Source of the DNA: an uncultured Spirochaetaceae bacterium
GTDB lineage: Bacteria > Spirochaetota > Spirochaetia > Sphaerochaetales > Sphaerochaetaceae
Length of the DNA: 37,623 nt
Direction of reading: 5' to 3'
Assembly (NCBI GenBank): GCA_944389105.1
Contig: CALXLD010000040.1
Location: 1-37,623 of the forward strand
The notes below the pieces were generated by a model. The model worked only from the letters and a program-made list of their open reading frames with translations, was not told the origin of the DNA and did no database searches. The translations under genes were made by a program, and so were the position numbers. The stretch's first letter is position 1. The number at the start of each line of letters is the position of its first letter. Below, piece after piece: positions 16,821 through 28,021 of the stretch.

Positions 16821-17371
16821 TATATCTTCAGCTGCTTTGGAGCTTTATTCAGATCGGGCTTTTCAGCATCGGCGGGGGCTATGCCGCAATGCCTCTTATC
16901 CAGCATCAGGTAATTGATATACACAGCTGGCTGACGATGCAGGAGTTCACAGACATAATAACAATCTCACAGATGACACCTGGGCCAATAGCAATAAACA
17001 GTGCAACATTTGTCGGGATACAAGTAGCGGGAATTCCTGGTGCTCTTATCGCTACTTTCGGCTCTGTCCTTCCATCCTCGATAATTGTCATGACACTTGC
17101 CTTCATCTACTACAGATTCAAAGGACTTGAAGTCATACAGAGCATACTGAAAGGACTGAGACCTGCAGTTGTCGCAATGATCGCATCTGCTGCTCTCTCC
17201 CTTACTGCAATGGCACTCTGCGGAAAAAGCACATTCACCGCAGATATAGATACAGTAAACGCAGCAATACTTATAGCCGCCCTGATAATCCTGAGAAAAT
17301 GGAAGCTAAGCCCGATGCTTGTCATGGCTCTCTCAGGTGGTATAGGTCTTCTTGCAGGATTGATACTCTAA
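16817..17371 (+). CDS. Chromate transporter family protein, second half-size subunit
   Basis: A 184-residue paralogue and partner of the preceding gene. The blocks FSIGGGYAAMPLIQHQV and ISQMTPGPIAINSATFVGIQVAGIPGALIATFGSVLPS mirror those in the first subunit. The two proteins probably form a heterodimer with opposite membrane orientation, as described for short CHR pairs. It starts inside the stop codon of its partner. It ends with a 4-bp overlap with the convergent panE gene and has no terminator. Confidence 0.9.
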   Translation: MIYLQLLWSFIQIGLFSIGGGYAAMPLIQHQVIDIHSWLTMQEFTDIITISQMTPGPIAINSATFVGIQVAGIPGALIATFGSVLPSSIIVMTLAFIYYRFKGLEVIQSILKGLRPAVVAMIASAALSLTAMALCGKSTFTADIDTVNAAILIAALIILRKWKLSPMLVMALSGGIGLLAGLIL

Positions 17372-18375
17372 TTCCTGAAAAGCTCCAGATTTGAGACAGC
17401 GGGCTTAAGTTCTCCTCTTTCTATCCTGTGAACTATCTCTATGGCCTTTTCAGTTACAGGCACGGGAATACCAGCAGATTCCGCTTCTCTTAGAAGAGCA
17501 CCGTCTATCGCATCGATCTCAGTCGTCTTCCCTTTTTCGATATCCTGCAGCATCGATGACCGGAGCTTCCGATGCCGTCTCATTGCAATTGGGATTATCG
17601 CATAGCAGAAGAACTTCTTTGCAGGGGATTTATAATCAGCAAGAATCTCAATATTCTTACCCTGCATCGGGGCAAAGCTTATCCCCTTTTCATGAGTAGT
17701 ATCCACACATTCTTTCATTATGAGCTGCACGATATGCCTTGCCCTGAATGAAGAAGAAACACCCCCAAAGGTCAAGCCGGTTATGGCAGAGACTGCAGAA
17801 AAAGAGGCATTGATAAGCAGTTTTGACCATCTTGCCCCCTGAAAATCATCAGATATATCGACCTGTCCCATCAAAGAGAATATTGATTTCAGCAGATAAA
17901 GACTTTCATCAGAACCTGATGGGAATCTTCCTATCGTGAATGTAAAAGTCTCCTCTCCGCTTGTAAGCTCTGCAATACCGGGAGCTATATATGAAGCACC
18001 CCATCCTATTATGCAGCCGTAAGTCCTTTCCTCTCCTATGATACCGGCAATCCCGGCTTCCGGAAGACCATTCTGGCATGTACAGATTATTCCATCTGGC
18101 TTCAGCTTTCCTGAAAGAAACTCTACAGTCTCTTTCTGCCCGATGCTCTTCGTCATCAGGATGATGACATCATAATCGCAAGCCATCTCAGATGGAAGAA
18201 AAGCAGAAACGGGGATGCAGAAATCCGCCTTCCCCGTAATATGAGCACCATTCTTTTTCAAAGCCGCAATATGAGCACTGTTCCTTGAAATAAGATCAGC
18301 GCTGAGCCCGCCTTTTTCCAGGTAAGCGCCAAGCACCGTTCCAAGACTGCCTGCCCCGTATATTGCTACTTTCAT
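17368..18375 (-). CDS. panE: 2-dehydropantoate 2-reductase (ketopantoate reductase)
   Basis: A 335-residue protein of the PanE/ApbA family. The N-terminal Rossmann motif is GAGSLG (7-12). ILMTKSIGQKETV, QNGLPE and the C-terminal domain block WSKLLINASFSAVSAITG contain the expected catalytic Lys region and substrate Asn. It reduces 2-ketopantoate to pantoate with NADPH for coenzyme A synthesis. Ketopantoate is made from 2-ketoisovalerate, the product of IlvD, which fits its place at the end of the ilv-leu operon. Its ATG overlaps the ilvB stop by 1 nt (TGATG), so translation is coupled. Other members of the family reduce different 2-keto acids. Confidence 0.88.
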   Translation of the reverse strand: MKVAIYGAGSLGTVLGAYLEKGGLSADLISRNSAHIAALKKNGAHITGKADFCIPVSAFLPSEMACDYDVIILMTKSIGQKETVEFLSGKLKPDGIICTCQNGLPEAGIAGIIGEERTYGCIIGWGASYIAPGIAELTSGEETFTFTIGRFPSGSDESLYLLKSIFSLMGQVDISDDFQGARWSKLLINASFSAVSAITGLTFGGVSSSFRARHIVQLIMKECVDTTHEKGISFAPMQGKNIEILADYKSPAKKFFCYAIIPIAMRRHRKLRSSMLQDIEKGKTTEIDAIDGALLREAESAGIPVPVTEKAIEIVHRIERGELKPAVSNLELFRN

Positions 18376-20060
18376 CAGTTCTCCAGCGGAACTTCCTGAT
18401 AGCCGATCATATCGGAAATCGAAGCTCCAGGAGCAACCATTGGATAGACTTTGTCATCCGAAGGTATGATAGCCTCAATCACAACTGCTTCATTGAGATC
18501 TATGGCTTTCCTGAGAATCTCCTCCGGATCATCATCCGGCATGATTCTCATTCCCTTGACACCATAAGCTTCTGCAAGCTTTACCCAGTCAAGCGGAGTA
18601 TCAAGCGTCGTCTCCGAATAGTGGCCATCATAGAAAAGGGTCTGCCATTGCCTTACCATTCCAAGTGCATGGTTATTCATTATGAGAATCATGACAGGGA
18701 GCTTATAGCGGGCAATTGTAGCAAGTTCATTTGCATTCATCCTGAAAGAACCATCGCCTGCTATATTTATAACCCTCTTATCAGGATGGGATACCTGTGT
18801 GCCTATTGCAGCACCTGTTCCATATCCCATCGTCCCGAGTCCTCCTGAAGTAAGGAAATGATGCGGCTGACGAGAATGCAGGAACTGAGCTGCCCACATC
18901 TGATGCTGGCCAACTTCAGTTGTCACATAGCCGTCTGCAGGAAAAAGCTTATCCAGAGCTTCGAGGATCTCCTTCGGACGCGCAGCATCCGACGAAACCT
19001 TCACAGGAAAGCGCTTTCTACCTCTTTCAACAGTCTCCATCCATTCGCGGTGATCAAGCTTCTCCCCGATTCTATCCATGATTGCCCTGAGAGCAACCTT
19101 GACATCCGCAACAACGTGTACGGATGAGATGATATTCTTATTGAACTCTGCAGGATCGACATCAATCTGCAGGATCCTTGCCTGCTTGGCAAATGTGGAT
19201 CCATTTGAGATAACACGGTCCGAGAATCTTGCACCGATTACAATAAGAAGGTCACAGCGGTTTATCGAAAGATTCGAAAGCCTTGTACCATGCATTCCTA
19301 TCATTCCGGTGAAACGCGGAGAAGAAGAATCAATAGCACCAAGCCCCATCAGGGAAGAACCAACTGGGGCATCTATCAAATCTACGAATTCCCGGAGTTC
19401 TTCAGCTGCTTCTGCCCTTATAACACCGCCGCCGATATAGCACATTGGCCGCTTTGCTGCTCTGATTAGAGCCACTGCTTCATCAATATCCTTATCCCTG
19501 AGGCGGACAGATACTCTTTCAGGTTCTGTAATTTTCCTGGCCGTATACTCATACTCCCCAACCTGTATATCCTTAGGGATATCAATAAGGACAGGTCCTG
19601 GACGGCCTTCCTTCGCAATCCTGAAGGCTTCCCTTATTGTATCTGCAAGCTCAGCTATATCCTTGACTATATAGTTATGCTTTGTGATCGTAAGGGTTAT
19701 TCCCCTGATATCGACTTCCTGAAAGCTATCCCTTCCAAGAAGCGGCAATGGAACATTCCCTGTAATTGCAACCATCGGGACAGAATCCATATAAGCTGTA
19801 GCAAGTCCTGTTACAAGGTTTGTTGCTCCAGGTCCTGAAGTTGCGATGCAGACACCTACCTTGCCTGTGGAACGTGAGTATCCGTCAGCGGCATGGCTTG
19901 CTCCCTGCTCATGGGCAGTAAGAATATGGCGGATTCTGGATCTGTTCTTGTAAATTGCATCATAGAGAGGAATAACCTGTCCTCCCGGATAGCCAAAGAC
20001 AGTATCCACCCCTTCTTCAATAAGACACTCGATTATAATCTCAGCACCTGTCATCTTCAC
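18375..20060 (-). CDS. ilvB: Acetolactate synthase large (catalytic) subunit
   Basis: A 561-residue thiamine-diphosphate enzyme. The N-terminal GAEIIIECLIEEGVDTVFGYPGG holds the catalytic Glu region (HEQGASHAADGYSR further on). GDGSFRMNANELATIARYKLPVMILIMNN is the ThDP-binding GDG...NN motif, and the central FAD-type domain is present. It condenses two pyruvates, or pyruvate and 2-ketobutyrate, in Val/Leu/Ile synthesis. I chose GTG at 20060 because GGAGG lies 9 nt upstream and the resulting MKMTGAEI matches usual family starts; an ATG at 20054 is the alternative. Its regulatory partner ilvN is at the other end of the operon, about 7 kb away. Confidence 0.93.
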   Translation of the reverse strand: MKMTGAEIIIECLIEEGVDTVFGYPGGQVIPLYDAIYKNRSRIRHILTAHEQGASHAADGYSRSTGKVGVCIATSGPGATNLVTGLATAYMDSVPMVAITGNVPLPLLGRDSFQEVDIRGITLTITKHNYIVKDIAELADTIREAFRIAKEGRPGPVLIDIPKDIQVGEYEYTARKITEPERVSVRLRDKDIDEAVALIRAAKRPMCYIGGGVIRAEAAEELREFVDLIDAPVGSSLMGLGAIDSSSPRFTGMIGMHGTRLSNLSINRCDLLIVIGARFSDRVISNGSTFAKQARILQIDVDPAEFNKNIISSVHVVADVKVALRAIMDRIGEKLDHREWMETVERGRKRFPVKVSSDAARPKEILEALDKLFPADGYVTTEVGQHQMWAAQFLHSRQPHHFLTSGGLGTMGYGTGAAIGTQVSHPDKRVINIAGDGSFRMNANELATIARYKLPVMILIMNNHALGMVRQWQTLFYDGHYSETTLDTPLDWVKLAEAYGVKGMRIMPDDDPEEILRKAIDLNEAVVIEAIIPSDDKVYPMVAPGASISDMIGYQEVPLEN

Positions 20061-20064
20061 TTTA

Positions 20065-21738
20065 TCAATCCTCCAGAACAATAGCACCCTGACGGGCAGA
20101 GGTTACGTGCTTGGAATACCTGTAAAGGTAACCGCTCTTAATAGGAACCTCGTGCGGGACAAGATTTTTCCTTCTCTCTTCGAGGGTTTTCTCATCAACC
20201 ATGAGATCAAGTCTTCCTGCCGGAATATCTATGGAAATCTCATCACCTTCTTCCACAAGAGCTATAGGTCCGCCAGAAGCTGCCTCTGGAGATACATGGC
20301 CGATTGAAGCACCTCTTGTTGCTCCAGAGAATCTTCCATCCGTTATGAGGGCAACTGTCTTATCAAGTCCCATACCGGCAATTGCTGAAGTAGGACTGAG
20401 CATCTCCCTCATTCCAGGGCCGCCTTTCGGGCCCTCATAGCGGATTATTATCACATCGCCGGATTTGATTTTCTTTCCGAAAATCGCAGCAATGGCTTCT
20501 TCTTCGCTATTGAAGACTCTTGCAGGTCCCTTATGCGTGAACATCTCCGGAGCTACTGCGCTTCTTTTTACCACAGCACCTTCAGGAGCAAGAGTTCCCC
20601 TCAGCACCGCTATACCGCCAGTTGCAGAATATGGGTTATCAATCGGCCTGATAACCTCAGGGTCGGTATTCCTGGCTTTATTCACGGATTCCCCGATTGC
20701 TGTCCCCATTACTGATAGCAGAGAAAGATCAAGAAGGTTCTTCTTTGAAAGCTCCTTCATTACAGCCATCACGCCACCTGCCTGATAAAGGTCCTCCATA
20801 TGATGCGGGCCTGCAGGTGCAAGATGACAGAGATTAGGAACAGATGCGGAAATATCATTGGCCTGGAAGATATCAATATCAATGCCCGCCTCATGCGCGA
20901 TTGCAGGAAGGTGAAGCATAGTATTTGTAGAGCATCCTAGCGCCATATCGACTTTAAGGGCATTCATGAATGCCTTTTCTGTCATTATCTGCCGTGCGCT
21001 TATTCCCTTTCTGAGAAGTTCCATCACCTGATAGCCTGCTTCTTTTGCCAGCCTGAGCCTCTCTGAGTAGACAGCAGGAACAGTTCCATTTCCAGGAAGC
21101 CCCATGCCAATTGCTTCAGTGAGGCAGTTCATCGAGTTTGCTGTATACATTCCGGAGCAGGAACCGCAGGAAGGACATGCACTGTTTTCCCACTCTAAGA
21201 ATTCAGCATCATCCATGGTTCCGGCAGCATGTTTTCCAACAGCTTCAAACATTGAAGAGAGAGACATACCCCGCTTATCACCTCCTTTTACATGACCGGC
21301 GAGCATCGGACCACCCGATACGAAAATCGAAGGAAGATCAAGCCTTGCCGCAGCCATCAGCATTCCGGGAACAATCTTGTCGCAGTTTGGAATGAATACA
21401 AGGGCATCAAAAGGATGTGCAGTTGCCATGACTTCAATCGAATCAGCAATAAGCTCACGAGAAGCAAGGGAGTACTTCATGCCCTTATGCCCCATCGCGA
21501 TACCATCACAGACCCCGATAACAGGAAAAGCCACTGGATTTCCTCCATTTTCCCTGACACCGGCTTTTACGGCATCTGCAATAAGCTGGAGCTGCATATG
21601 TCCAGGGATTATCTCATTATGAGCGCAGACAATACCGATTGTCGGCATGGCAATTTCCCTGTCAGTCCAGCCAAGGGCTTTCATCAACGATCTATGAGGA
21701 GCCTTATCATCCCCTTTCTTCATTGAATCAGATCTCAT
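20065..21738 (-). CDS. ilvD: Dihydroxy-acid dehydratase
   Basis: A 557-residue iron-sulfur dehydratase of normal length. The conserved blocks [31 protein letters not shown] and [19 protein letters not shown] provide the cluster cysteines. [21 protein letters not shown] is the C-terminal signature. It converts dihydroxyisovalerate and dihydroxymethylvalerate to the corresponding 2-keto acids. The ATG overlaps the leuB stop (ATGA) and has AGGAGG 5 nt upstream; the longer frame to 21768 is not needed. It is followed almost directly by ilvB. Confidence 0.96.
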
Positions 21739-22802
21739 TTTATCCTCCTGATTATCTCGCTGCCGCACTCTTCTGTGCCTACATATTCCGCATTGCTCGA
21801 TGCTATATCCTTTGTCCTTACTCCATCGGAAAGTGCGGAAGCAACAGCATCTTCAATTGCCTTGGCTTCCTTTTCAAGAGAGAATGAATAGCGAAGCATC
21901 ATAGCTGCGGAGAGGATTGTAGCAATCGGATTGGCAATGTTCTGACCAGCGATATCTGGAGCAGAGCCATGGATAGGTTCATACATTCCGAAGCTATCAT
22001 CCCTCAACGATGCAGAAGCAAGCATTCCGATAGAGCCTGTAATCATCGAAGCTTCATCGGAGAGAATATCACCGAACATGTTCTCAGTAAGGAGAACATC
22101 AAAATGCCTAGGGTCCCGTACAAGCTGCATCGAAGCATTGTCAACATACATGAAATCGAGAGCGACATCACTGTATTCCCCGGCTATTTCAGAAACTGTC
22201 TCCCTCCACAGCCGTGATGTTTCGAGCACATTTGCCTTATCCACGACAGTTACATGATTATGCCGTATCCTGGCAGCCTCAAATGCTTTCCTTGCAATCC
22301 TCTTTATCTCATCAGCAGAGTATCTCATAACATCATAGGCACTTTTTCCATCCTCGCTTCTGCCTTTCTCTCCAAAATATATACCACCTGTCAGTTCCCT
22401 TACGACAAGAAGATCGACTCCTCCGGAGATCACTTCAGGCTTCAGAGGAGAAGCAGATGAAAGCTCTGGATAGATTACAGCAGGCCGGAGATTGCAGAAG
22501 AGCCCAAGCCCGCTTCTCAGGCCGAGAAGAGCCTTCTCAGGACGAAGATTCCCAGGGACATGATCCCACTTAGGGCCTCCGACAGCTCCAAGAAGGACTG
22601 CATCGGATGCTTTTGCGCTCTCAAGAGCATCTTCTGTGAGAGGAACCTTGTATTTATCTATAGAGATTCCGCCAGCATCTATTTCCTTATATGAAATGGA
22701 ATGGCCATAGACAGAAGCGACTTTATCAAGAGTCCTGACTGCCTCCCTTACGATATCCGGTCCGATGCCATCTCCTGGCACCAGTGCAATTCTCATATCC
22801 AT
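21735..22802 (-). CDS. leuB: 3-isopropylmalate dehydrogenase
   Basis: A 355-residue enzyme of the isocitrate/isopropylmalate dehydrogenase family. It begins [14 protein letters not shown] and contains [40 protein letters not shown], the catalytic Tyr and Lys regions ([20 protein letters not shown]), and [19 protein letters not shown] for NAD binding. It oxidises and decarboxylates 3-isopropylmalate in leucine synthesis. The ATG overlaps the leuD stop by 1 nt (TGATG) with AAGGAG 8 nt before it. Confidence 0.96.
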
Positions 22803-23290
22803 CAGTAGTTCTCCTTGATATACGGGATAAGACCGCCTGCCTCAATAAGGCTCTGCATGAATGGAGGAAATGGCTCAGCCTTGTATTCCTTCCCCGTTGT
22901 CTCATCCTTTATAACACCTGTCGAGAAATCAACGGAAACCTTATCTCCTGCTTTTATCTCCTGAGAAGCTTCTTCGCACTCAAGTATCGGGAGCCCGATA
23001 TTAATTGAATTCCTGAAGAAAATACGTGCGAATGTCGTAGCTATTACGCAGCTTATGCCGGATTCCTTGATAGCTATAGGGGCATGCTCACGGGAAGAGC
23101 CGCATCCGAAATTCCTGCCAGCAACGATGATATCTCCGCTCTGGACACTTTTTACAAACGAGCTGTCTATATCCTCCATGCAATGCGAAGCAAGCTCTTT
23201 CTTATCCGAGGTATTCAGATAACGAGCCGGAATGATAACATCTGTATCAACATTATCTCCATAGCGGAATACCTTACCTTCAGCTTTCAT
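22802..23290 (-). CDS. leuD: 3-isopropylmalate dehydratase small subunit
   Basis: A 162-residue swivel-domain protein with [38 protein letters not shown] and [17 protein letters not shown], all typical of LeuD of the archaeal/bacterial short type. It forms the isomerase with LeuC. I chose the ATG at 23290, which has AGAGGAGG 6 nt upstream and lies inside the leuC end (11-bp overlap). The longer frame to 23359 would add an unrelated hydrophobic stretch. Confidence 0.95.
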
Positions 23291-24551
23291 AACCAACCTC
23301 CTCTGGATCAGCAATATATCCCATGACAGCACTTGCAGCAGCTGTCTCAGGAGAAGCAAGGTAGACCTCGCTCTTTACATGCCCCATGCGTCCGACAAAA
23401 TTGCGGTTCGTCGTAGATACGCATCTCTCACCTTCGGAGAGAATGCCCATATAACCTCCAAGACAAGGACCGCAGGTTGGAGTCGAGACAACACATCCAG
23501 CTTCCACGAAAATATCAAAAAGCCCTTCATGCATTGCTTCAAGCCAGATTTTCTGAGTTGCCGGGATAACAATGCATCTGACTCCATCTGCAATTCTGCG
23601 GCCTTTCAGGATTCTTGCAGCAGCCTCGAGATCAGAGAGGCGGCCATTTGTACAGCTTCCGATCACGACCTGATCAATCTTTATATCATGGCCCTCTTTT
23701 GCATCATGGGTATTCTCCGGCAGATGAGGATATGACACCGTAGGCTTGATAGAGGAAAGATCTATATCAATCGTCCTCTCATATTCTGCATCCTCATCGG
23801 AATAGAATATCTTCGGTTCTTTTGCCCCATGCTCCTTCAGATACTCAAGAGTCTTTTCATCAACAGGGAAGATTCCGTTCTTTGCTCCAGCTTCAATTGC
23901 CATATTCGCTATCGTGAACCTATCATCCATTGAAAGAGAATGTACACCTTCCCCTGTGAATTCCATCGTTCTGTAAAGCGCTCCATCAACTCCGATCATT
24001 CCGATTATCGAAAGGATCAGGTCCTTTCCTGAAACATGTTCCCGGAGCTTTCCCGAAAGACGGAACCGGATCGAAGCCGGAACTTTGAACCAGGCTTTTC
24101 CGATTGCCATTCCTGCTGCCATATCAGTTGAGCCAACACCCGTAGAAAATGCGCCGAGAGCTCCATATGTACATGTATGGCTATCTGCCCCGATTACAGT
24201 ATCCCCTGCTGTAACCAGTCCCTTTTCAGGAAGAAGCGCATGTTCTATGCCGACTCTGCCGACTTCAAAGTAGTTCGTTATTGATTCACTTTTCGCAAAT
24301 GCCCTTACGCATGCGCACTGCTCTGCAGCCTTAATATCCTTATTAGGGGTAAAATGATCCGGAACGAGAGCAATCTTATCTTTGTCAAAGACATGGTTCT
24401 TCCCGAATTTAGGAAACTCCTTTATCGCTACAGGGCTTGTAATATCATTGCCGAGCACCATATCAAGATCCGCCATGATAAGCTGCCCAGGATGAACTTC
24501 CTGCAGTCCTGCCGCATGTGCGAGTATCTTCTCAGTAATTGTCATTCCCAT
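23280..24551 (-). CDS. leuC: 3-isopropylmalate dehydratase large subunit
   Basis: A 423-residue aconitase-superfamily protein. [42 protein letters not shown] and [14 protein letters not shown] supply the three cysteines of the [4Fe-4S] cluster. With LeuD it isomerises 2-isopropylmalate to 3-isopropylmalate. The length and pairing with a short LeuD place it in the 420-residue subgroup. The ATG at 24551 overlaps the leuA stop (TGATG) and has AAGGAGG 7 nt upstream; a GTG one codon earlier is possible. Confidence 0.95.
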
Positions 24552-26146
24552 CACTCGACCTCCTTGTCGGTGTGGCCAACGAGCATATCGTTGTCAAAAG
24601 TAAGCGCAGAGATCTTGTTTCCTCCGGAAATTGAGGAACTTCCTCCCTCGAGCATTCTGTTTACAGCATTCAGGCAGGCAAGAATAGATGCCTCGATTAC
24701 GTCAGTGGAGACTCCACGGCCTCTGTAAACGCCAGTTCCATCGGAAATCTTTACAAGGGCCTCACCAAGCGCATCCCGATGTTCTGTAACAGCCTGAAGC
24801 TGATAATCATCGAGGGAAAATGGATGGCGGATAATCTTCTCGACTGCTCTAAGGGAGGCATATACCGGACCTGTTCCCGAAGCAACACCTTCGATTACCT
24901 TGTCACCGTTCTTCAGCGCGATACATGCAGTTGAGGTTATCTTGTTTCCGCTGTTCACAACATAGGAAGAGAGTGACCATGTCTGCTTTGCAACAGCCTC
25001 GGTAGACTCAACAAGAGCCACGATATCACGGTCGGAAACATTCTTCTTCCTGTCGCAGAGATTCTTGAATTCCTCGAAAAGCCTTGTTATCTCAGCCTCT
25101 GGAAGAACATATCCAAGCTCATCAAGCTTCTTCGAGAATGCATGCTTTCCTGAATGCTTTCCAAGAACATAATTGGTCTTAACAACTCCGACGCTTTCAG
25201 GGGTCATTATTTCATATGTCTTGGAATTAGCCATCATTCCATGCTGATGAATCCCTGATTCATGAGCAAAAGCATTGTCACCAACAATAGCTTTTGAAGG
25301 GAATATCCTTACACCTGTTATTGATGAAAGAAGACGAGCGGAACGGCAGAGCTCCTCAGTCCTGATACCTGTCTCTGTATCGTAGATATCTGGACGGGTC
25401 TTCATTGCCATCACAACTTCTTCAAGAGCTGTATTGCCAGCTCTCTCTCCAATACCGCAGAGAGTGCATTCAATCTGCCTTGCACCTGCCCTGACTCCTG
25501 CGAGGCTATTTGCTGTAGCCTGTCCAAGATCATCATGGCAATGCATTGAGATTATTGCCTTATCGATATTAGGAACACGGTTCATTACCGTGCTGACCAT
25601 CTCGGTAATATCTCCGGGATAAGCATATCCGACTGTATCCGGGAGATTTATTGTAGTAGCACCTTCGTTGATTGCAGTCTCGACTACACGGCACATATAG
25701 TCAAGATCGGTGCGTGTTGCATCTTCAAGCGAGAATTCGATATCAGGGCAGAGATTACGTGCATACCTGACCTGTTTCTGGATTCTGTCCAGAGCCTCTT
25801 CTCTGGACATCCTCAGCTTGTACTGAAGATGGAGATCCGATGTCGCAAGGAAGACATGGATACGTGGTCTGTTTGCTTTTTTCACTGCATTCCATGCGGC
25901 ATCGATATCTTTTTCAAGAGCACGGGCAAGCGAAGCTACAGTGACGTTATCGACACTTTTTGCTATTGCCTCAACGCTCTCGAAGTCGCCCGGGGATGAA
26001 ATGGCAAAGCCGGCTTCTATTATATCCACGCCTAGCGTCTCAAGCTGCCTTGCTACCCTGATTTTCTCCTCCAGGTTCATGCTATAACCAGGAGCCTGTT
26101 CTCCATCGCGGAGCGTGGTATCAAATATGTAAATCCTCTCTGCCAT
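24551..26146 (-). CDS. leuA: 2-isopropylmalate synthase
   Basis: A 531-residue enzyme. The catalytic TIM barrel begins [18 protein letters not shown] and includes [27 protein letters not shown] with metal-binding His residues, and [22 protein letters not shown] and [11 protein letters not shown] are in the linker domain. The C-terminal LeuA dimer and feedback domain (about 390-510) is present, ending near [22 protein letters not shown]. It condenses acetyl-CoA with 2-ketoisovalerate, the committed leucine step, and is usually inhibited by leucine. GGAGGGGAAGT precedes the ATG. Confidence 0.96.
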
Positions 26147-26164: not shown

Positions 26165-27169
<1,005 letters not shown>

Positions 27170-27706
27170 TTATCTTTCCCCTTCGTCTCCGAAGGTTGTT
27201 TCCGAAATTGGTCTTGCTCCGCGCTCAAGCGCAGTTATTCCAGTCCTGACAAGCTCTACAATCCCATAGGGCCTTGTAAGTTCCAGGAAAGATTCCAGCT
27301 TATCAAGGGAGCCTGTCAGCTGCATTGTCACTGTTGTCGGAGTAACATCGAGGATCTTTGCCTTGAAGATTTCCCCTATCTCAACGATTGCGCCACGGTT
27401 GGAGCCATCAGCCTTGATCTTGACAAGCACAAGCTCTCTCTGAAGAGATCCATGCCGGGTCATCTCATATACCTTGATAACATCTATCAGCTTCTCAACC
27501 TGACGGATAATCTGCTCAACTATCTGCCTGTCTCCGGTGACAACGATTGTTATGCGGCTTCTGGATGGATCTTCCGTTTCACCGACTGAGAGAGAGTCGA
27601 TGTTATAGCCACGCCTGGAGAAAAGAGCTACTACCCTCATCAGCACACCTGGCCTGTTATAAACAAGAATAGCTAATGTATAGCTGTCTTTGTTGTCGTA
27701 TACCAT
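27170..27706 (-). CDS. ilvN: Acetolactate synthase small (regulatory) subunit
   Basis: A 178-residue protein. The N-terminal ACT domain (about 8-82; YTLAILVYNRPGVLMRVVALFSRRGYNIDSLSVG) and the C-terminal ALS_ss_C domain (about 90-165; RELVLVKIKADGSNRGAIVEI, TGSLDKLESFLELTRPYGIVELVRTG) make it a complete IlvH/IlvN-type subunit. It activates the catalytic subunit and gives valine feedback control. It is the first structural gene of the operon, directly behind the attenuator, while ilvB is eighth. GGAGG lies 7 nt before the ATG. Confidence 0.96.
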   Translation of the reverse strand: MVYDNKDSYTLAILVYNRPGVLMRVVALFSRRGYNIDSLSVGETEDPSRSRITIVVTGDRQIVEQIIRQVEKLIDVIKVYEMTRHGSLQRELVLVKIKADGSNRGAIVEIGEIFKAKILDVTPTTVTMQLTGSLDKLESFLELTRPYGIVELVRTGITALERGARPISETTFGDEGER

Positions 27707-27723
27707 CTCAGAACCTCCAATAA

Positions 27724-27756
27724 TAAAAAATGCCCGCGATTCTCAACACCACGGGC
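27724..27756 (-). terminator. Attenuator terminator of the ilv-leu operon
   Basis: On the minus strand GCCCGTG (27750-27756) pairs with CGCGGGC (27732-27738), with one G-T wobble, followed by ATTTTTTATT. It lies in the leader between the small peptide ORF and ilvN, 18 bp before the ilvN start. Its 5' arm overlaps the 3' arm of the antiterminator, so the two cannot form together. Confidence 0.9.
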
Positions 27757-27789
27757 CTACATCAAAAAATGCTCAAACCGTGGTTTAGC
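27748..27789 (-). promoter_or_regulatory. Antiterminator and pause hairpins of the ilv-leu attenuator
   Basis: Segment ACCACGG (27778-27784) is perfectly complementary to CCGTGGT (27748-27754), forming a 7-bp antiterminator that would break the terminator stem. The alternative 1:2 hairpin pairs GCTAAAC (27783-27789, at the end of the leader ORF) with GTTTGAGC (27771-27778), with one bulged G. A ribosome stalled on the Leu/Ile/Val codons would block the 1:2 hairpin and favour antitermination. This is the classical peptide-attenuation logic, assigned from pairing only; no folding energy was computed. Confidence 0.85.
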
Positions 27790-27847
27790 ATGTAATGATG
27801 AGTACAGATAGAAGGAGAGATGATGAAATCAATGTAATCTTATTCAT
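27785..27847 (-). CDS. Leader peptide of the ilv-leu attenuator
   Basis: A 20-residue ORF in the leader of the branched-chain operon. Its ATG has AAGGAGG (27854-27860) 6 nt upstream. It encodes five Leu (TTG, CTC, CTT, CTA, CTC), four Ile and one Val, including LLLSVLII near the end. Ten of its twenty codons are thus for the amino acids made by the operon. The stop codon overlaps the 1:2 hairpin. It senses charging of the three tRNAs rather than having a protein function. It is too short for routine gene callers. Confidence 0.9.
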   Translation of the reverse strand: MNKITLISSSLLLSVLIITC

Positions 27848-27877
27848 TATTCTCCTCCTTTTGATATGATTTACCTT

Positions 27878-27907
27878 CTTATACGGCAACAGAGAGGACA
27901 ATGTCAA
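27878..27907 (-). promoter_or_regulatory. Promoter of the ilv-leu operon
   Basis: On the minus strand there is a perfect TTGACA (27902-27907), an 18-nt spacer and TATAAG (27878-27883). The start point would be near 27871, about 24 nt before the leader-peptide ATG. This gives a leader of roughly 165 nt before ilvN. Confidence 0.75.
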
Positions 27908-27955
27908 CAAAACATGATTAAAAATTGCAAGATTATCCGTTTCTATGAATATTCT

Positions 27956-28021
27956 TTACTGCTTTTTTACAATCGCCCAGATTATGATTCCTCCAAGGAG
28001 ACAGACTACGATAGCTTCCAT
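27956..28021 (-). CDS. Possible 21-residue single-span membrane protein
   Basis: An ATG overlaps the last base of the HAD stop codon (TAATG). The frame runs 21 codons to a TAA. It encodes ME, then a hydrophobic helix (AIVVCLLGGIIIWAIV), then KKQ. The layout (acidic start, about 16 apolar residues, basic end) is that of a small one-pass membrane protein with the positive side inside. An AAGG lies 8 nt upstream. It would be translated by coupling from the HAD gene. I know no named homologue, and chance cannot be excluded for so short an ORF. Confidence 0.4.
   Translation of the reverse strand: MEAIVVCLLGGIIIWAIVKKQ

Follow-up and report, generated by a model that had tools for sequence, protein, structure and literature searches.

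We found that a leader peptide rich in Leu, Ile and Val, together with three hairpins that compete with one another, very probably forms a ribosome-mediated transcription attenuator of nine ilv-leu-panE genes in the window, i.e. the whole stretch of 37,623 nucleotides that was analyzed. Sequence and comparison establish the leader ORF and the pairing segments with their order, and show that these recur in relatives and that the branched-chain amino acid (BCAA) codons keep fixed places. The parts of the leader region in the window are listed below.

27878 to 27907, minus strand: sigma-70-like promoter, TTGACA at 27907-27902, an 18-nt spacer and TATAAG at 27883-27878 (direct read)
27852 to 27860, minus strand: Shine-Dalgarno sequence (SD) AAGGAGGAG of the leader ORF, within the 5' arm of the predicted hairpin P0
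27785 to 27847, minus strand: candidate leader ORF MNKITLISSSLLLSVLIITC, 20 codons, ATG at 27847, stop TAA (direct read)
27810 to 27859, minus strand: predicted hairpin P0, SD against leader codons
27794 to 27811, minus strand: main predicted sensing codons CTA TCT GTA CTC ATC ATT, -8 to -3 from the stop (virtual ribosome scan and conservation)
27760 to 27797, minus strand: hairpin 1:2 (anti-antiterminator), overlapping the stop codon (folding)
27748 to 27784, minus strand: antiterminator 2:3, in which ACCACGG at 27784-27778 pairs with CCGTGGT at 27754-27748 over 7 bp
27725 to 27756, minus strand: terminator 3:4, stem at 27756-27732 and U6 at 27730-27725 (folding and terminator scanner)

All the attenuator parts named in the original prediction (promoter, SD, 20-codon ORF, hairpin 1:2 over the stop, 7-bp antiterminator, terminator with U6) were confirmed. 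The TTGACA/TATAAG pair was not listed under the strict promoter rule of the scanner, as TATAAG does not end in T; a -10-like hexamer with TTGACA recurred in many of the relatives whose upstream regions were compared. The direct read gave a strong SD and five Leu, four Ile and one Val codons in the leader ORF, and among the 44 small SD-bearing ORFs of the window just two had a Leu+Ile+Val content of at least 45%. The earlier count of five leucine codons was correct but their description as five different codons was not, as they read TTG, CTC, CTT, CTA and CTC in order and are of four kinds. Since the strand 27754-27748 is common to the antiterminator and the terminator, the two are mutually exclusive. 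Further upstream, a 21-codon ORF MEAIVVCLLGGIIIWAIVKKQ was seen at 28021-27956 on the minus strand, with its ATG overlapping the stop of an upstream HAD-family hydrolase gene (TAATG), and similar frames (ME..I..LL.G.I.WAL..K) preceded the leader in 16 of 39 regions. Judged by its sequence, this ORF looks like a small membrane protein and is perhaps translationally coupled to the hydrolase gene.

The leader is followed by genes in the order ilvN-ilvC-leuA-leuC-leuD-leuB-ilvD-ilvB-panE, with identities backed by NCBIfam.

27170 to 27706, minus strand: ilvN, acetolactate synthase small subunit
26165 to 27157, minus strand: ilvC
24551 to 26146, minus strand: leuA
23280 to 24554, minus strand: leuC
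22802 to 23359, minus strand: leuD
21735 to 22802, minus strand: leuB
20065 to 21768, minus strand: ilvD
18375 to 20087, minus strand: ilvB, acetolactate synthase large subunit
17368 to 18375, minus strand: panE, 2-dehydropantoate 2-reductase

The shared strand and the close spacing of the nine genes (gaps of at most 19 nt, or overlaps) bear out the nine-gene operon that had been proposed.

A scan of GTDB contigs gave Candidatus Ornithospirochaeta and uncultured Spirochaetaceae/Spirochaetales as the nearest named relatives, in line with the spirochaete origin deduced earlier from the letters alone. IlvN was present in 51 of the 60 genomes searched, the window's own among them, while the ilvN search found no match in 6 of the 35 same-genus relatives. 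We took 58 upstream regions and dropped 19 that matched another one exactly for 120 nt or more ahead of ilvN, leaving 39 distinct regions. A BCAA leader ORF was found in 38 of the 39 and the compact layout in 36, so that the Leu/Ile/Val-rich ORF, whose conservation upstream of ilvN had been put forward as a check, was indeed conserved, and peptide-dependent attenuation of the whole operon is still the best reading of the recurring layout. The sole exception (L026, genome G011, also L141) had ilvN without a BCAA leader; its ilvN-ilvC-leuA-leuC-leuD order was retained although the attenuator was missing. L026, L054 and L056 were kept out of the alignment because they have no compact leader, and the alignment therefore had 36 rows. 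Within the genus sample, 29 of the 30 ilvN-bearing genomes (own included) had the leader, and a BCAA-rich leader preceded ilvN in all 11 ilvN-bearing genomes of other family genera, four of them compact and seven longer. Nine longer leaders were examined (L171, L173-L177, L179, L054, L056): six end in SLIIL and the others in LIIL or VIL, most have a CCACGG/CCGTGG-type hairpin 3' of the stop, and in none could a clear U-tract terminator or a counterpart of the compact-form terminator be defined. The off-switch of the longer-leader genera may differ from that of the compact form.

All 36 compact leaders had an SD and an open frame, 17 to 30 codons long, and the placement of BCAA codons relative to the stop was nearly fixed. 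They occupied positions -3, -4 and -8 in 36/36 leaders, -9 in 35, -5 and -6 in 34 and -10 in 32, and were sparse at -7 (10/36), -2 (4/36) and -1 (0/36). At the seven BCAA-rich positions, 243 of 252 residues were L, I or V, three were Ala, none was F, M, W or C, and the remainder were Ser or Thr; L, I and V interchange, so the BCAA class is conserved rather than a particular residue. All three amino acids occurred within codons -10 to -3 in 32/36 leaders, which supports the earlier suggestion that the leader senses all of them. Codon usage, drawn from the window and the fetched loci rather than from whole genomes, showed that CTA makes up 27.5% of the leader Leu codons as against 3.3% of those in genes sampled from these genomes, an approximately eight-fold enrichment, while CTG makes up 4.9% as against 19.2%. 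At least one CTA was present in 34/36 leaders, and it stood at -8 in 27. The enrichment of CUA suggests extra sensitivity to leucine.

In the mechanism that we propose, scarcity of charged Leu-, Ile- or Val-tRNA would stall the ribosome while one of the codons -8 to -3 occupies the A site; the stalled ribosome would cover segment 1 and leave CCACGG free, 2:3 would form and RNA polymerase would read through. With plentiful charged tRNA, the ribosome would reach codon -2 or the stop and cover CCACGG, so that 3:4 would form and transcription would end near 27724. When no ribosome is present, P0, 1:2 and 3:4 would form together and leave the operon off by default. We scanned the leaders with a virtual ribosome, masking its footprint along the leader and computing the probability of 2:3 before segment 4 exists. 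With a reach of 12 nt, mean P(2:3) for A-site codons -8 to -3 was 0.88, 0.91, 0.93, 0.93, 0.97 and 0.96, and it fell to 0.20 at -2 and to 0.00 at both -1 and the stop. The 5' side of the predicted sensing zone was blurred, with 0.80 at -9 and still 0.63-0.68 over codons -14 to -10, and setting the reach to 10 or 14 nt displaced the edge of the zone by roughly one codon. The scan predicts antitermination for stalls between -8 and -3 but termination once the ribosome has reached -2. This 3' limit of the sensing zone coincides with the point at which the BCAA run ends, although the two boundaries were obtained independently of each other. As a control, the scan of E. coli trpL peaked at Trp11 (0.49) and Arg12 (0.53), with merely 0.18 at Trp10; Trp11 and Arg12 are two of the three codons named in the available text of PMC1183508. 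The pheL leader gave a plateau across its Phe codons. The E. coli his, leu, ilv, ivb and thr leaders gave no comparably clear profile, so the scan is not generally diagnostic. The competing folds of the leader were also computed: without a ribosome, the off structure (P0, 1:2 and 3:4) of the full leader had -45.1 kcal/mol versus -33.6 kcal/mol for the antiterminator state. At the decision point, the ribosome-free P(2:3) was already 0.67 in the window (mean 0.38; above 0.5 in 14/36 leaders), hence a default-off state would depend on the order of folding, with 1:2 forming first.

These data bear on two other ways of reading the peptide. One is that the ORF product acts in its own right, as a small membrane peptide or one resembling a lipoprotein signal, and that the terminator has nothing to do with it. 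The product is a hydrophobic 20-mer ending in LIITC, which we take to be lipobox-like. However, the near-exclusive use of L, I and V at the seven positions, with three Ala and no F, M, W or C, the variability of the last two residues (TC, RS, TR, KR, NS, TN and others) and the agreement of the BCAA edge with the ribosome geometry all speak against this reading, which we consider very unlikely. The other is that the nascent peptide itself responds to a ligand by arresting the ribosome, as TnaC does, instead of its codons sensing charged tRNA. The C-terminal half LLLSVLVITC is conserved across much of the genus, as such an arrest would predict, but L, I and V interchange, residues -2 and -1 are not kept and the CUA enrichment fits codon sensing, which leaves arrest by the peptide highly improbable. 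Control of the terminator by a metabolite riboswitch, a T-box or an RNA-binding protein, with the ORF being incidental, would also account for a conserved RNA before a biosynthetic operon. The leader families of Rfam include the Leu, His, Trp and Thr leaders and ilvB-type motifs. A covariance search of the window found no leader, T-box or riboswitch family at the gathering score and had two matches, both tRNAs; none of 13 weak matches at 27600-28000 was a bacterial leader or riboswitch. As all 36 compact leaders also keep an open frame with fixed BCAA positions, this last alternative is scarcely credible, and sensing by the codons of the leader ORF is the reading that we retain.

Both the antiterminator and the terminator could be folded in all 36 compact leaders, and we asked whether their stems covary in relatives, a check named at the outset. 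The outcome differed between the stems. For hairpin 1:2, the native combination of arms was better than swapped ones, with only 13 of 5000 permutations being as good over the 36 rows and a median p of 0.002 (range 0.000-0.044) over 13 lineages. The evidence for 3:4 was weak, since 7 of 5000 permutations were as good over the 36 rows while the median p over the 13 lineages was 0.10. For 2:3, 1643 of 5000 permutations were as good, and its arms are nearly invariant, too much so for covariation to be read from them. The terminator was more stable than its shuffles in 35/36 leaders, and 1:2 at the 5% level in just 12/36; the best local fold of the 1:2 stretch was another pairing in 4/36 (L015, L016, L039, L045). 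Column-based RNAalifold on the 36-row alignment found the terminator alone, with five pairs, one of them with a change on both sides, and did not recover 1:2 because its 3' arm shifts by indels; pairing was therefore tested per sequence and by arm swaps. Among the features of a classical attenuator that could be tested on sequences, the leader shows all but a clear co-variation of the 2:3 and 3:4 stems.

Folding also predicted the additional hairpin, P0, between the SD and the leader codons, which is absent from the original prediction. In the window, the predicted partner of the SD runs from the last part of codon 10 into codon 13, of which it takes the first part, and so comprises Leu11-Leu12 with their flanks; the start ATGAA would pair with the codons immediately ahead of this stretch. 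The SD was predicted to pair inside the ORF in all 36 compact leaders, usually with codons -10 to -9 (CTC CTT serving as the anti-SD), and the start codon was predicted to be unpaired 0.21 of the time on average. Computed over the same length of 63 nt, the probability of the SD being paired within the ORF exceeded 0.9 in 36/36 leaders, but in just 6% of the 181 ordinary strong-SD genes that served as comparison. Swapping the SD and anti-SD arms between 13 lineages weakened the pairing from -14.72 to -12.35 (median p 0.000, worst 0.010), and swapping the arms of the whole P0 weakened it from -16.66 to -14.85 (median p 0.008, worst 0.072). When the codons were resampled synonymously, the mean stability was -13.96 kcal/mol as compared to -17.64 kcal/mol for the native leaders; P0 was more stable than its resampled mean in 34/36 leaders at printed precision, with one tie and one worse, and was individually better at the 5% level in 6/36. 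Much of P0 therefore comes with the peptide and the SD. This raises the possibility that P0 is incidental, a purine-rich SD pairing with any pyrimidine-rich Leu/Ser ORF, in which case the attenuator would be real but there would be no start gate. The small number of individually significant leaders, the pairing of the SD within the ORF (above 0.5) in three of seven E. coli leaders too (leuL, pheL and hisL) and the 35% of the 181 ordinary genes that exceed 0.5 are all consistent with an incidental P0; we regard it as a serious possibility, somewhat below an even chance. On the other hand, it sits poorly with the contrast between leaders and ordinary genes above 0.9 and with the weaker SD:anti-SD pairing after arm swaps between lineages. 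In genus g29, moreover, the peptide at the pairing region has been altered to largely non-BCAA residues (GPSLSA in L156, EPSG in L158), and yet the probability of SD pairing within the ORF remains 0.83 and 0.59, respectively. The predicted P0 has probably been selected. With less certainty, it might act as a start gate or as a polymerase-pause hairpin, favouring a single, early-loading ribosome per transcript.

The search was extended to the class with R1, a covariance model of the compact leader holding the terminator pairs only, which was run on 248 class genomes with E up to 0.01. There were matches in 26 genomes, one each: 17 within the family (13 of the genus and four of genus g29) and nine weak ones (E 2.7e-5 to 0.0044). 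R1 misses the longer-leader genera of the family, and the compact leader was found in the genus and in g29. Eight of the nine weak matches were rejected, having no ilv or leu gene downstream within the fetched locus. The ninth (L166, ~1400-1700), in another family, has a BCAA-rich frame IFPVIIILLGVIIII and a terminator-like hairpin before a leuA-like gene. We also scanned the upstream regions of ilv genes in other families (27 regions, 20 genomes), leaving out L138 (315 bases), for frames in which 8 or more of 12 codons are BCAA codons and which precede a terminator of -15 kcal/mol or lower; these thresholds were chosen after the results of a preceding scan of the regions. A still earlier scan, in which an SD was required, had picked up many frames far from ilv genes and was replaced. 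Nine of the 27 regions (L112, L113, L114, L115, L117, L120, L122, L130, L132) were positive under these thresholds, whereas none of the 126 control ORFs taken from these loci was. The positives precede ilvB in 7 of the 20 genomes, one genome in each of seven families. Two genomes each have two ilvB loci with distinct BCAA leaders and terminators (L120/L130 in G059, L114/L132 in G057). We tentatively put forward, at only a little short of an even chance, a four-hairpin attenuator in which the leucine codons would sense leucine (through the rare CUA), encode the peptide and form the anti-Shine-Dalgarno that closes the leader's own start, so that the signal would be read only by a ribosome loading before ~60 nt are transcribed; in that case, the control of ilv operons by BCAA attenuation would be widespread and old in the class Spirochaetia.

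The attenuator is new to the family, within the literature searched. Judged by titles, we found nothing on attenuation in the literature on Sphaerochaeta leader peptides and nothing on regulation in that on Ornithospirochaeta. According to the available text of PMC2965389, leader-peptide systems were until then known in Proteobacteria and Actinobacteria only, and none of the spirochaete terms sought occurs in that text; PMC4833913 counts leader genes in Spirochaetales, and 'ilv' is absent from its available text. Apart from a motif in Leptospira, our search found no leader-peptide attenuation of amino-acid biosynthesis in spirochaetes, although the Lopatovskaya 2010 survey, cited in PMC4833913, could hold one. 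The original statement that spirochaetes have no established example was too strong, because the Leptospira ilvB motif, with its uORF as described in the available text of PMC10272879, is an earlier computational precedent; novelty for the family stands as searched. Leader-peptide attenuation is extended here to a spirochaete family whose members are mostly uncultured and is pointed to in seven other families of the class, and operon behaviour can be predicted for organisms known from assembled genomes only. The orthologues, which far outnumber the seven of the Leptospira motif, open two questions to sequence and reporter work: why attenuators use rare CUA codons, and whether the start sites of leaders are gated to leave the decision to a single ribosome on each transcript.

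Like the trp, his, leu, ilv and phe leaders of E. coli and Salmonella, the spirochaete leader has an ORF with regulatory codons, the 1:2/2:3/3:4 logic and a terminator before the first gene, and rare CUA codons also occur in the S. typhimurium leu leader, as given in the available text of PMC1183508. It differs from these leaders in sequence and in having a mixture of Leu, Ile and Val among its control codons as far as -3; moreover, predicted pairing of the SD inside the ORF is common to all 36 spirochaete leaders as against three of the seven from E. coli. The Leptospira ilvB motif (WRC-14-1) was first published as a weak riboswitch candidate and re-read in 2023 as a BCAA-rich uORF, and it shares with our leader the phylum, an ilv gene and such a uORF (available text of PMC8632094 and PMC10272879). 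Compared by description in those texts, it differs in having seven representatives, all in Leptospira, in standing before ilvB and in being also Thr-rich. The Corynebacterium ilvBNC leader (ilvB-II motif) likewise has a BCAA uORF and a terminator before ilv genes, and its hairpin H1 was proposed to shield the initiation site and to pause the polymerase; its start is leaderless without an SD, and H1 doubles as the anti-antiterminator (available text of PMC11857589). In the spirochaete leader, by contrast, P0 is a hairpin distinct from 1:2, and the SD:anti-SD pairing is the predicted shield.
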